A stretch of DNA of 64,000 nt from Halorussus pelagicus (GTDB taxonomy: Archaea; Halobacteriota; Halobacteria; Halobacteriales; Haladaptataceae). The position numbers were made by a program, and so were the translations under genes. The notes beneath the pieces were generated by a model. It saw only the letters and a list, made by a program, of their open reading frames with translations. It had not been told where the DNA came from and made no database searches. Of this stretch, positions 20,311 to 25,172 are shown in pieces; position 1 is the first letter of the stretch; every line of letters begins with the position of its first letter. The stretch spans positions 1,364,001-1,428,000 of the forward strand of contig NZ_CP035119.1 of assembly GCF_004087835.1 (NCBI RefSeq), in the 5' to 3' direction.

Positions 20311-21495
20311 ATGCGAGTAGTGGCGAAGTTCGGCGGAACGAGCCTCGGAAGCGGCGACCGAATCAATCGCGCGGCCGACTCGGTGGCCGACGCCGTGGCG
20401 CAGGGCCACGAAATCGCGGTCGTCGCCAGCGCGATGGGCAACACGACCGACGAACTCTTGGACGAAATCGAGTTCGAGACCGAGGAGACCGACCGGGCCG
20501 AAATCGTCAGCATGGGCGAGCGGACCAGCGTCCGGATGCTGAAAGCCGCCTTGGCGGCCCGCGGCGTTGACGCCGTCTTCGTGGAACCGGGGAGCGAGCG
20601 CTGGCCGGTCTTCACCGACGGCGACGGCGAACTCGACGCCGAGCGGACGAAAGCCGCCGCCGCGGAACTCGCCGCACAACTTGACGACGTGGTCCCGGTC
20701 ATCACTGGTTTCCTCGCGGAGGGTCCCGACGGAAACGTCACCACGCTCGGACGTGGCGGGTCGGACACGACCGCCGTGATGCTCGGCAACTACATGACCG
20801 CCGACGAAGTCGTCATCGTGACCGACGTGGAGGGCGTCATGACCGGCGACCCCCACGTCGTGGAGGGGGCGCGGAACGTCGGCGAAATCTCGGTGGACGA
20901 ACTCCGGAATCTATCCTTCCGCGGGGCCGAAGTCGTCGCGCCCAGCGCGCTCTCGTACAAGGGCGAGAACCTGAGCGTCCGCGTCGTCCACTACCAACAC
21001 GGCGACCTGCTGGCTGGCGGCACCGACATCATCGGCGAGTTCGAGAGCCTCATCGACATGCGCGAGGAACCGCTGGCCTGTCTCACCGTCGCGGGCCGGG
21101 CCATTCGGAACCGACCGGGCATCCTGCAGGACCTCTCGACCGCGCTCGGCGACAGCGACATCAACGTCGATGCGGTGGCCAGCGGGATGGACTCGGTGAC
21201 GTTCTACGTGGACGAGACGGTCGCCGAGCGCGCCGAGAACATCCTCCACCGCGAGGTCATCGACGAGGAGTCGCTGTCGAGCGTCACGGTGGACGACGAC
21301 GTGGCCGTCGTCCGCGTGATGGGCGGGGAACTCCCGAACCAACCGGGCGTCATCCGGACCCTCGTTGACCCCATCGCCGAGGCCCACATCAACATCCACG
21401 ACCTCCTCACGAGCGCGACCAGCGTCGCCGTCTTCGTGGACTGGTCGGACCGCGAGAAGACGCTGGACATCGTTCAGAACGAGTTCGACAACTGA
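20311..21495 (+). CDS. lysC: aspartate kinase
   Basis: First step of the aspartate pathway (Lys, Thr, Met, Ile), ATP-dependent phosphorylation of aspartate. 394 aa. The kinase domain starts VVAKFGGTSLGSGDRI (KFGGTS motif) and includes SMGERTSVRMLKAAL and TLGRGGSDTTAVMLG. Two C-terminal ACT domains follow (LTVAGRAIRNRPGILQDLSTAL and VRVMGGELPNQPGVIRTL), the usual allosteric sites for Lys/Thr feedback. Upstream 120 bases are non-coding. No other aspartate-pathway gene is adjacent. Confidence 0.93.
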   Translation: MRVVAKFGGTSLGSGDRINRAADSVADAVAQGHEIAVVASAMGNTTDELLDEIEFETEETDRAEIVSMGERTSVRMLKAALAARGVDAVFVEPGSERWPVFTDGDGELDAERTKAAAAELAAQLDDVVPVITGFLAEGPDGNVTTLGRGGSDTTAVMLGNYMTADEVVIVTDVEGVMTGDPHVVEGARNVGEISVDELRNLSFRGAEVVAPSALSYKGENLSVRVVHYQHGDLLAGGTDIIGEFESLIDMREEPLACLTVAGRAIRNRPGILQDLSTALGDSDINVDAVASGMDSVTFYVDETVAERAENILHREVIDEESLSSVTVDDDVAVVRVMGGELPNQPGVIRTLVDPIAEAHINIHDLLTSATSVAVFVDWSDREKTLDIVQNEFDN

Positions 21496-21619
21496 CAGGT
21501 ATTCTCGTAGAATTTCAGAGATTCACGACGCAGAAGGTGGGTTCGGGCACTTTCTCCGCTGGAGCCGGTTTCGAGGATGTACGACTTGCTACGATAATCC
21601 CTATGACCGGCCCGGAACG

Positions 21620-21626
21620 TTTTTTA
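21620..21626 (+). promoter_or_regulatory. TATA-like box before the pheST leader ORF
   Basis: TTTTTTA ends 23 bases before the ATG at 21650. This fits a near-leaderless transcript that would begin at the leader ORF rather than at pheS. Confidence 0.5.
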
Positions 21627-21649
21627 CCGATTGCGAACAACTACCGAGC

Positions 21650-21733
21650 ATGTCGTCCGAATCCCGAGTCGGCGGAACCGTTCGCCAGTCACGCCACCCG
21701 CGGGCGGGGTTCGGCTTCTTCTTCGCGGTCTGA
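21650..21733 (+). CDS. Phe-rich leader peptide upstream of pheST
   Basis: ATG to TGA, 27 codons. It starts MSSESRVGG and ends AGFGFFFAV, so four of the last seven residues are phenylalanine. It stands 164 bases upstream of pheS, the gene for the enzyme that charges tRNA-Phe, and just behind a TATA-like element. A run of codons for the amino acid handled by the downstream operon is the hallmark of attenuation leaders (E. coli pheST itself has the Phe-rich leader pheM). A regulatory role here is inference; the ORF and its sequence are directly visible. Confidence 0.6.
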   Translation: MSSESRVGGTVRQSRHPRAGFGFFFAV

Positions 21734-21789
21734 CCGAGTGGCGGACTTCCCGACCGGGCGACGAGTCCGGCGGGAACGAAACCGCTCGC

Positions 21790-21820
21790 GCGCGGTCGTC
21801 GGCCAGCGGCGCGACCGTGC
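21790..21820 (+). promoter_or_regulatory. hairpin between leader peptide and pheS
   Basis: GCGCGGTCG (21790-21798) can pair with CGACCGTGC (21812-21820), nine pairs with one G-T wobble and a 13-base loop. No T-run follows, so it is not a simple intrinsic terminator. It could take part in a translational or transcriptional switch. Confidence 0.35.
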
Positions 21821-21897
21821 TTCAGAAACGATAAGCGGGCGCACGGACACGTATCGACAACGAGCGACCCGACCGACGACGAACGATTCCAAACACG

Positions 21898-23406
21898 ATG
21901 AAACTACCCGAATCACAGGCCGCGGTGTTACGAGCCGCGAGCGCGAACGACGCACGGAGTATCGACCAACTGGCAGACGAGACCGGCCACAAGCCCGAGA
22001 CGGTCACGGGCGCGGCCTTCGAGTTGGAGTCGGCAGGTCTCGTGTCGGTGGAAGAAGCGACCGACGAGACCGTGACGCTGACCGACGAAGCGCGCGAGTA
22101 TCTCGACGACCGTCTCCCCGAGGTCCGACTCTACGAGGCCGCGATGGACGCGGGGGCCGACGCCGAGACCGTCCAGATGGGCCGGGTCATCGGCCAGTCC
22201 GGACTCGAAGGGCCGCAGGTGGACATCGCCCTGTCGAACTACGCCCGGAAGGGGTACGGCACTATCGAGAGCGGCGAGATTACCGCCGACCCCGACGCCG
22301 ACCCCGAGTCTGACGCTGAGGCCGACGCCCTCGCCGCGCTCGACGCGGCCGAGTCGGTCGAAGACGACGCCGTGCTGGAGCAGTTGGAGCGTCGCGGACT
22401 CGCAGAACTCTCCGAATCGACGGTCCGGTCGGTGACGCTGACCGACGAGGGCGTGACCGCGATGATGGAAGGCGTCGAGACGGCCGAGACCGTGGGCCAA
22501 CTCACTCCCGAGATGCTGACCTCCGGCGAGTGGCGCGACGTTGAGTTCGCCGAGTACAACGTCGAGGCCGACGCCGAGAACATCGACGGCGGCAAAACCC
22601 ACATCCTGCGCCAGACCGCCAACCGCGTGAAGGATACGCTGGTCGGGATGGGCTTCGAGGAGATGGAGGGTCCCCACGCCGACGCGGAGTTCTGGATCAA
22701 CGACTGTCTGTTCATGCCACAGGACCACCCCGCGCGGACCCACTGGGACCAGTTCGCGCTGGAGAACCCGCGCGAAATCGGCGAGTTGCCCGACGATTTG
22801 GTGGCGCGCGTCGAGGACGCCCACCGGAACGGCGTCGGCGAGGACGGCGACGGCTATCACTCGCCGTGGACCGAGGAAGTTGCGCGGGGAATCGACCTGC
22901 GCGGACACACCACCTCGCTGTCGATGCGGTATCTCTCGGGCCACGAAGTCGGCGAGTTGGAACCGCCCCAGCGGTTCTTCAGCGTCGAGAAAGTGTACCG
23001 AAACGACACGCTCGACCCGACCCATCTGTTGGAGTTCTACCAGATAGAGGGCTGGGTGATGGCCGAGGACCTGTCGGTGCGGGACCTGATGGGCACGTTC
23101 GAGGAGTTCTACGCGCAGTTCGGCATCACGGACATCGAGTTCAAGCCCCACTACAACCCCTACACGGAGCCGAGTTTCGAACTATTCGGCACGCATCCGA
23201 CGACCGGCGAGATGGTTGAAATCGGAAACTCGGGGATGTTCCGCGAGGAAGTTCTCTCTCCGCTCGGCGTCGAGTGTGACGTGATGGCGTGGGGACTCGC
23301 GCTGGAACGCCTGCTGATGTTGATGTACGGCTTCGAGGACATCCGCGACGTTCACGGGACGCTGTGTGACCTTGAACTGCTCCGCGAGACGGAGGTGCTA
23401 CACTGA
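21898..23406 (+). CDS. pheS: phenylalanyl-tRNA synthetase alpha subunit
   Basis: Catalytic subunit of the (alpha-beta)2 PheRS. 502 aa. N-terminal winged-helix repeats (QAAVLRAASANDARSIDQLA onward, about 1-210) are typical of archaeal/eukaryotic PheS. The class II catalytic domain (about 225-502) has motif 2 in FFSVEKVYRNDTLDPTHL and motif 3 in GLALERLLMLMYG. The stop overlaps the pheT start (TGATG), so the two subunits are translationally coupled. A Phe-rich short ORF precedes it. Confidence 0.95.
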   Translation: MKLPESQAAVLRAASANDARSIDQLADETGHKPETVTGAAFELESAGLVSVEEATDETVTLTDEAREYLDDRLPEVRLYEAAMDAGADAETVQMGRVIGQSGLEGPQVDIALSNYARKGYGTIESGEITADPDADPESDAEADALAALDAAESVEDDAVLEQLERRGLAELSESTVRSVTLTDEGVTAMMEGVETAETVGQLTPEMLTSGEWRDVEFAEYNVEADAENIDGGKTHILRQTANRVKDTLVGMGFEEMEGPHADAEFWINDCLFMPQDHPARTHWDQFALENPREIGELPDDLVARVEDAHRNGVGEDGDGYHSPWTEEVARGIDLRGHTTSLSMRYLSGHEVGELEPPQRFFSVEKVYRNDTLDPTHLLEFYQIEGWVMAEDLSVRDLMGTFEEFYAQFGITDIEFKPHYNPYTEPSFELFGTHPTTGEMVEIGNSGMFREEVLSPLGVECDVMAWGLALERLLMLMYGFEDIRDVHGTLCDLELLRETEVLH

Positions 23407-25172
23407 TGCCAGTCGTAGACGTGAATCCCGACGAACTACGGGACCTGACCGGCCGCGACGAGAAGAGCGACGACGAACTCATCGACGACATGTTCGCCCT
23501 CGGTCTCGAATTCGAGGGGCGGACCGAGGACGGCGACCTCCAACTGGAGTTCGCGCCCGACCGACTCGACCGCCTCTCGGTCGAAGGCGTCGCGCGCTCG
23601 CTGCGCTACCAGTACGGCGACGACCGGGGCATCTACGTGCCGGGCACCAACGACGCCGACTGGACCATCGAGGTCGAGGAGTCGGTGCCCGACGAACGGC
23701 CCTATGTCACCGGCGCGGTGATTCGTGACGTGGACCTGGACGAGGAAGCGCTCGACTCGCTCATCCAGTTACAGGAGAAACTTCACGCGACGATGGGCCG
23801 CAAGCGCGCGAAGGGAGCCATCGGCATCCACGACCTGACGATGCTGAAGGGGCAGGCCGCCAGCGTGGAGGGCCAAACCGAGGCGGGCAACTCCATCGTC
23901 TACCGGGGTATCGACTCCGACGGCGACCGATTCGTCCCGCTCGACTCGGACGCCGATATGACGCCCGACGAGGTCCTGCGCTCGCATCCGACCGGCGAGA
24001 CGTACGCCGACCTCGTCGCCGAGTACGACCGGTATCCCGCCATTTACGACGACATCGGCCTGTTCTCGTTCCCGCCGGTCATCAACGGCCGCCGGACCGA
24101 GGTCTCGACCGAGTCGCGGGACCTGTTTGTGGAACTGACCGGCACCGACCAGTGGACCATCGACCACATGTGCAACATCATCTGCTACGCGCTCGACGCT
24201 CGGGGCGCGAAAGTCGAGGAAGTCGCGGTTAGCTATCCGGACCGCGACCTCCTTCGGCCCGACTTCGAGGTCCGCGAGAAGACGGTCACCCACGAGCGCA
24301 TCGAGAGCCTGCTCGGCATCGACCTGAGCGCCGAGCGGGTTATTGATCTGCTGGAGCGGTCGGGTCTCGACGCTCGAACCGAGGAGGTCGGCGACGACGA
24401 GTTGGCCTACGAGGTCGAGATTCCGCCCTACCGCGTGGACGTGCTTCACCCCCTCGACATCGTGGACGACGTGGGCCGCGCCTACGGCTTCAACGACCTC
24501 GAACCGCGCTACCCCGACGTGGGGACGGTCGGCGGCCGACACGAGCGGTCGAAACTCGAAGACGCCGCCCGCGAGGTTCTCGTCGGACTCGGCTTCGAGG
24601 ACCTGCTCAACTTCCACATGATAAACGAGGACGAGAACTTCGACCGAATGGGACTCGCCCGGCCGGGTGAGTCGGCAGACCCCGACACAGATGGTGCGGC
24701 CGCGGGCGACGTTCTCGGTGCGGACGACCCCGCGACCATCCTCGAACCCTACAGCGAGGACTACACCATGCTCCGGACGTGGGCGCTCCCCTCGCTGCTG
24801 ATGGTGCTAGAACGGAACACCCACCGAAGCTATCCGCAAGACCTCGCGGAAATCGGTCTCGCGGCCCGTGTTGACGAGAGCGAGAACACTGGTGTCGCCG
24901 AGCGCCGGACGGTCGCCGGAGCGCTTGCGCGCCACGACGCCTCCTACGAGGACGCGAAGGCGCGACTGCAGGCCATCGCGCGTAATTTCGACGTCGAACT
25001 GGAAACGCCAGCGACCGACCATCCGTCGTTCATTGACGGGCGCGCGGCCTCGGTCGTACTGGACGGCGAGACCGCGGGCGTCGTCGGGGAACTCCACCCT
25101 AAGGTGCTGGTCGAACACGACCTCGAACTGCCGGTCGCGGCGTTCGAGTTCCGACTCGACGCGTTAGAATAG
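23406..25172 (+). CDS. pheT: phenylalanyl-tRNA synthetase beta subunit
   Basis: 588 aa, archaeal/eukaryotic-type beta subunit. It starts MPVVDVNPDELRDLTGRD, then B3/B4 editing domain (IGLFSFPPVINGRRTEVS about 215-235), B5 domain (LLGIDLSAERVIDLLERSGL), and a class II-like non-catalytic domain with NFHMINEDENFDRMGLARPG. Lacks the tRNA-binding EMAP-like extension of bacterial PheT, as expected for archaea. It lies in one operon with pheS. The unconserved insertion around residues 415-440 is acidic. Confidence 0.94.
   Translation: MPVVDVNPDELRDLTGRDEKSDDELIDDMFALGLEFEGRTEDGDLQLEFAPDRLDRLSVEGVARSLRYQYGDDRGIYVPGTNDADWTIEVEESVPDERPYVTGAVIRDVDLDEEALDSLIQLQEKLHATMGRKRAKGAIGIHDLTMLKGQAASVEGQTEAGNSIVYRGIDSDGDRFVPLDSDADMTPDEVLRSHPTGETYADLVAEYDRYPAIYDDIGLFSFPPVINGRRTEVSTESRDLFVELTGTDQWTIDHMCNIICYALDARGAKVEEVAVSYPDRDLLRPDFEVREKTVTHERIESLLGIDLSAERVIDLLERSGLDARTEEVGDDELAYEVEIPPYRVDVLHPLDIVDDVGRAYGFNDLEPRYPDVGTVGGRHERSKLEDAAREVLVGLGFEDLLNFHMINEDENFDRMGLARPGESADPDTDGAAAGDVLGADDPATILEPYSEDYTMLRTWALPSLLMVLERNTHRSYPQDLAEIGLAARVDESENTGVAERRTVAGALARHDASYEDAKARLQAIARNFDVELETPATDHPSFIDGRAASVVLDGETAGVVGELHPKVLVEHDLELPVAAFEFRLDALE

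Follow-up and report, generated by a model that had tools for sequence, protein, structure and literature searches.

Attenuation through ribosome stalling is a textbook bacterial mechanism. The pheST attenuator of Escherichia coli relies on a leader peptide, pheM, in which a run of Phe codons reports charged Phe-tRNA, and in actinobacteria auxiliary trpS genes are under ribosome-mediated attenuation. T-box riboswitches likewise provide cis RNA control of aminoacyl-tRNA synthetase genes by tRNA charging. Among the archaea, upstream ORFs (uORFs) with upstream transcription start sites (TSS) are listed before pheS and trpS in long 5'-UTRs of Haloferax volcanii (PMC4983044). No reported case of archaeal or haloarchaeal leader attenuation was found in the open-licence literature searched. 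An earlier note on the DNA described here held that no such control is known to be established for archaeal pheST.

The window analysed is a 64-kb stretch of the Halorussus pelagicus genome in which a short Phe-rich ORF lies in the interval between lysC and pheS (Table 1). From the letters alone, the earlier note had pointed to a 27-codon Phe-rich ORF between a TATA-like box and pheS and to a stable hairpin before pheS; all of these are present, and the hairpin is one of two conserved structures. The leader shares with E. coli pheM its target operon and its form, a short ORF with a run of Phe codons near the end, and its translation would likewise report charged Phe-tRNA. It differs from pheM in being predicted leaderless, with an archaeal promoter and the 5' arm of a stem in its first codons, and in having a spacer without a hairpin-plus-U-run terminator; the two belong to different domains, with no sequence relationship shown.

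Table 1. Features of the pheST leader region, with positions numbered from the first letter of the window.
Feature	Position	Strand	Description
lysC	20311-21495		
P1, promoter of leader	21612-21625	+	BRE/TATA-like, CCGGAACGTTTTTT; from sequence and start-anchored profile
Leader ORF	21650-21733	+	ATG start, 27 codons plus TGA; MSSESRVGGTVRQSRHPRAGFGFFFAV; predicted leaderless
Stem 1, 5' arm	21657-21665	+	CCGAATCCC; codons 3-6
Stem 1, 3' arm	21706-21714	+	GGGGTTCGG; bases just 5' of and within the first Phe codon
First Phe codon	21710-21712	+	TTC, inside stem 1
Putative Phe sensor tract	21716-21724	+	TTC TTC TTC
Hairpin 2	21736-21787	+	3' of leader stop; outer stem 21736-21741 with 21782-21787; inner covarying stem
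GGCGGA of hairpin 2	21740-21745		
GAAACC of hairpin 2	21778-21783		
Extra hairpin	21789-21822		GC-rich
Conserved box near pheS	21823-21838	+	CAGAAACGATAAGCGG; GGAACNGYTAAC across the class; may be a second, weak promoter (P2)
pheS	21898-23406	+	phenylalanyl-tRNA synthetase alpha subunit
pheT	23406-25172	+	beta subunit; start overlaps pheS stop; from ORF position and sequence

P1 consists of a BRE (CCGGAACG) and a T-rich TATA box (TTTTTT), with the T-run about 27 nt 5' of the leader ATG. A start-anchored profile over 136 leaders has C at -37 in 93%, AA at -34/-33 in 91-95% and TTTT at -29 to -26 in 90-99%. A BRE/TATA at this distance from the start codon is the mark of a leaderless haloarchaeal mRNA, so the leader should be translated from such a message. 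Other leaders were sought at chosen genes and within the window, where a scan of both strands for short ORFs with a leaderless-type promoter returned the leader ORF alone. In many loci, with or without the leader, a GGAACNGYTAAC box lies about 39 nt 5' of pheS, and this is perhaps a second, weak promoter (P2).

We gathered 166 distinct pheS upstream regions from across the class Halobacteria, and a homologous Phe-rich leader ORF, mostly of 24-29 codons, precedes pheS in 137 of them. The earlier note had proposed a check on conservation, and across the class the ORF, the promoter and the cluster of Phe codons are all conserved. At the family level pheS was recovered from 28 of 28 genomes searched, and a leader of the MPSE[SP]...GFGFFFA type stands before it in every family genome whose upstream region was read; Haloferax has the leader in 15 of 15 genomes searched. 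The canonical ORF was not found by this search in 29 of the 166 loci, three of which (L037, L132 and L188) retain the promoter and leader-like sequence. On a tree of 93 PheS sequences the leader accompanies 83, with at least eight changes. Phe makes up 13.8% of leader residues versus 3.7% of PheS codons, and 133 of 137 leaders carry at least three Phe within the last 11 residues; the central part of the peptide shows no conservation. We also note two loci (L053, L123) whose leader tail is altered to GFGFRPPKPAAFFAHL, with an insertion that splits the Phe run, and three (L062, L069, L071) with leaders of 46-48 codons, in which the extra sequence falls in the stem 1 loop and the stem is kept.

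Any single short ORF could arise by chance. ATG-initiated ORFs of 15-50 codons with at least three Phe in seven codons occur in 136 of 166 pheS upstreams versus 0 of 166 antisense sequences and 1 of 39 control-gene upstreams, and the Trp version of the same test matched none of the 39 control-gene upstreams. Class-wide conservation together with these controls refutes a chance ORF, an explanation to which we attach next to no credence, and the view that a Phe cluster before PheRS genes is not fortuitous is borne out.

Stem 1 is a 9 bp helix with compensatory changes, in which codons 3-6 pair with the bases preceding the Phe run; CCGAAYCC at codons 3-5 is the reverse complement of GGRTTCGG at the Gly-Phe-Gly codons. 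Helix 1 is paired in 97.1% of cells, and five of its nine pairs show changes on both sides. The outermost pair on the loop side exchanges C:G (84) for G:C (25), some lineages pair GAACGC with GCGTTC, and the variable pair is T:A in 43, C:G in 49, T:G in 21 and C:A in 0. Over the stem as a whole G.U cells outnumber A.C cells by 51:13, an excess which argues for pairing in RNA; judged from the alignment, the substitution pattern is that of an RNA helix. For an RNA ending at the Phe codons the median predicted probability of stem 1 formation is 0.99. Two conserved half-sites just 3' of the promoter could alternatively be read as a DNA operator, with the inverted repeat CCGAAYCC/GGRTTCGG bound by a transcription factor. 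However, the variable pair with 21 G.U and no A.C, the paired change to GAACGC:GCGTTC in other lineages, a half-site spacing that follows leader length and a different repeat sequence at trpS2 all speak against an operator, which we consider very unlikely.

The constraint imposed by stem 1 can be separated from that on the Phe codons. The first Gly codon is GGR in 92 of 92 cases and the first Phe codon TTC in 88 of 88, and the later Phe codons differ. Those 3' of stem 1 vary between TTC and TTT at the third position with TT kept, giving a TTY pattern of period 3, and because this variation is synonymous and periodic the later tract is conserved as codons and is a coding tract. On this evidence, peptide conservation at xE[SP] and GFG is partly RNA structure, and the later Phe codons carry a coding-level signal. 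T-runs of at least four within the Phe tract number 76 in 135 versus 22 expected from pheS codon usage, counts which are inflated by relatedness; Val inside the tract is GTT in 14 of 14. The enrichment suggests, as a lead only, a U-rich signal placed within the footprint of a stalled ribosome, an arrangement compatible with factor-dependent termination by FttA. The Phe tract of the window itself (TTCTTCTTC) has no TTTT.

After the stop codon the class pattern is GGYGGA, a variable stem-loop and GAAACC, and in the window the GGCGGA and GAAACC segments frame a purine-rich internal loop of hairpin 2. Helices 2 and 3 are paired in 85% and 90% of cells, with both-side changes in five of five inner pairs. 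For stem 1 and hairpin 2 together, an alignment of 50 sequences has 92.4% of cells paired versus 80.2% when shuffled and 27-56% when slid, and both-side changes in 12 of 18 pairs (111 cells versus 34, among related sequences). RNAalifold predicts the same three helices when no structure is supplied, and on the tree each pair shows only 2-4 independent concerted changes and none opposed, single pairs not being significant alone. Minimum free energy was dropped as evidence, since the window RNA is predicted to fold no better than its shuffles (z 0.16) and gives no signal in this GC-rich sequence. A covariance model searched against 59 class genomes gave strong matches at pheS in 45, with one strong copy per genome and always at pheS; it matches the window at 21650-21788 (E 5.7e-23) and matched nothing in 77 genomes drawn from the phylum's other classes. 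No Rfam family matches the region at gathering score, the sole hit being at chance level (E 2.2), and a T-box riboswitch or other Rfam RNA was rejected on this ground; unlike in a T-box, sensing here would go via translated codons. The extra GC-rich hairpin that follows hairpin 2 and precedes the P2-like box is seen in Halorussus relatives and is not class-wide.

In two loci (L173, L175) the leader lies 35-37 nt from pheS, with stem 1 kept and both hairpin 2 and the P2-like box absent; hairpin 2 is therefore not essential everywhere. These loci also bear on an alternative in which stem and hairpin serve autoregulation as a site that binds PheRS, tRNA or another protein, and the Phe-rich ORF arises incidentally from the RNA sequence. 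The strict conservation of GGYGGA and GAAACC in a hairpin tied to pheS would fit such a site, as would the one Phe codon fixed by stem 1 pairing, but the stem does not include the later Phe codons, whose TTC/TTT variation has period 3, the trpS2 leader carries Trp codons with no GGYGGA hairpin seen there, and hairpin 2 is missing from L173 and L175, where leader and stem 1 persist. We regard an autoregulatory site of this kind as improbable.

An intrinsic terminator, in the form of a GC hairpin followed by a U-run, was not found between leader and pheS, and for this reason the view that the leader simply reproduces the pheM mechanism of E. coli is not supported. TTTT occurs in 0 of 137 leader-pheS spacers, where 3.6 would be expected, an absence that is weak evidence alone. 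Within the ORF, stem 1 together with the U-rich Phe tract has a terminator-like form and is a candidate terminator at most. An alternative pairing of the leader with hairpin 2 (GGRUUCG:CGAAACC) was rejected: it has a constant purine-A mismatch, shows no covariation and is lost in the GCGUUC lineages. No covarying alternative pairing was found when a switch partner of the conserved structures was sought. Placing a ribosome on the Phe codons shifts the median predicted probability of hairpin 2 from 0.48 to 0.35, and an action on hairpin 2 through folding alone was dropped, the effect not being clear.

A parallel is seen at trpS2, the second tryptophanyl-tRNA synthetase gene. Homologues of Haloferax trpS2 are present in 43 of 145 class genomes at a strict threshold, and none exceeds that threshold in the genome of the window. 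In 27 of 31 loci read, trpS2 follows an ORF of leaderless type that contains Trp codons, such as MQSAPATRWRWQPPGADSVGGAVGAA, with a single Trp in the case of L245. All 27 leaders have an 8-14 bp stem between the first codons and a segment 3' of the Trp codons, and the 3' arm mostly starts 7-13 nt past the last of these. With fixed anchors, eight pairs hold in 99% of cells versus 92% when shuffled, with GC/AU exchanges at three pairs. A conserved pyrimidine-rich GCUCMCUYCGUUCUC is seen 3' of the leader stop at trpS2 loci L201 and L219-L247. As with the auxiliary trpS genes of actinobacteria, a Trp-codon leader stands before a second TrpRS gene; unlike theirs, the haloarchaeal leader is of leaderless type with a 5'-end stem, and it serves here as a parallel to pheST only. 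No cognate leader was found upstream of trpE or pheA in the window genome and eight relatives, and a leader for aromatic pathway genes was rejected; nor was one found in the tyrS and trpS1 upstreams checked.

Leaders with cognate codons precede both pheST and trpS2, which makes amino-acid sensing the most natural interpretation, and a role of the pheST leader as a Phe sensor is well supported by these comparisons. The amino-acid-sensing attenuation suggested in the earlier note is supported. The leader might instead be a functional micropeptide, or only aid pheS translation by coupling or reinitiation, with no sensing of Phe. The peptide is short and conserved, the leader-pheS gap is 35 nt in one locus and 37 nt in another, and haloarchaea have many small proteins (PMC4983044). 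However, the middle of the peptide is unconserved, conservation at its ends is largely base pairing, the median distance of 136 nt from leader to pheS exceeds the coupling range of H. volcanii (PMC12548453), and the codons match the synthetase at two separate genes. This account appears a little less probable still than the autoregulatory site.

Published data for H. volcanii provide a context for the leader transcript. Table 2 of Babski et al. 2016 (PMC4983044) lists a 26-aa uORF of pI 5.9 before pheS (HVO_2948) and a 23-aa uORF before the tryptophan--tRNA ligase gene trpS (HVO_A0127), both in 5'-UTRs of 150-250 nt with the dRNA-seq TSS upstream, and in that table no extra TSS is marked at either gene itself. 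A transcript start downstream of the ORF, which the earlier note had named as refuting its proposal, is thus not what the table reports for H. volcanii pheS. Haloferax leaders of 26 aa have a computed pI of 5.9 in several genomes, which fits the listed pheS uORF, and the nearest Haloferax leader sequence exceeds the listed mass of 2772 by about 20; the two are likely the same. The main text of that paper mentions neither attenuation nor a leader peptide, and its uORF section presents no codon or structure analysis. From the comparative evidence the leader is conserved and real, and it has no earlier interpretation in the open-licence literature searched.

A scenario that we hold to be quite probable is that the leader is a cis-acting, phenylalanine-sensing attenuator of pheST, in which a stalling ribosome senses Phe-tRNA charging. 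Transcription would start at or adjoining the leader ATG and the ribosome would load on the 5' end, as indicated by the promoter geometry and the published TSS of H. volcanii, a relative, and translation of the leader would then report charged Phe-tRNA. When Phe-tRNA is ample the ribosome would pass the Phe codons and leave, stem 1 would close, and the Phe tract and spacer would be left bare. When little is charged, a ribosome stalled on the Phe codons would, to judge from the spacing, occupy both the U-rich tract and the 3' arm of stem 1 and so keep the stem open, a state in which pheST expression would be permitted. The leaders of trpS2 would follow the same design with Trp codons. A ribosome footprint spans about 28 nt; one placed over the Phe codons would mask the 3' arm of stem 1 and one over the Trp codons of trpS2 would sit between the two arms, so that in both a stalled ribosome would exclude the stem. 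As output we prefer factor-dependent termination by FttA/aCPSF1 on the bare U-rich tract or spacer, blocked by the stalled ribosome, to which we give about an even chance within the attenuator explanation; alternatively the fold would control pheS translation. FttA is the likely archaeal polarity factor (PMC12548453).

Several points count against an attenuator. There is no terminator after hairpin 2, transcripts independent of the leader could arise from the P2-like box, 29 of the 166 loci are without the canonical ORF, the Phe tract of the window is without TTTT, and trpE and pheA are without a leader. The leader behaves like ribosome-mediated attenuation, yet it is not classed in the bacterial attenuator family because the terminator that defines that family was looked for and not found.

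Tentatively, and at rather under an even chance, archaea may have their own form of attenuation, with a leaderless leader whose first codons pair beside the sensor codons, and a stalled ribosome that opens the fold and shields U-rich RNA from termination by FttA/aCPSF1; across the Halobacteria its targets would include at least pheST and trpS2, both synthetase genes. If true, archaea would control synthetase genes by leader translation, and the leader would offer a defined site for studying factor-dependent termination in vivo, to which H. volcanii genetics could be applied at once.
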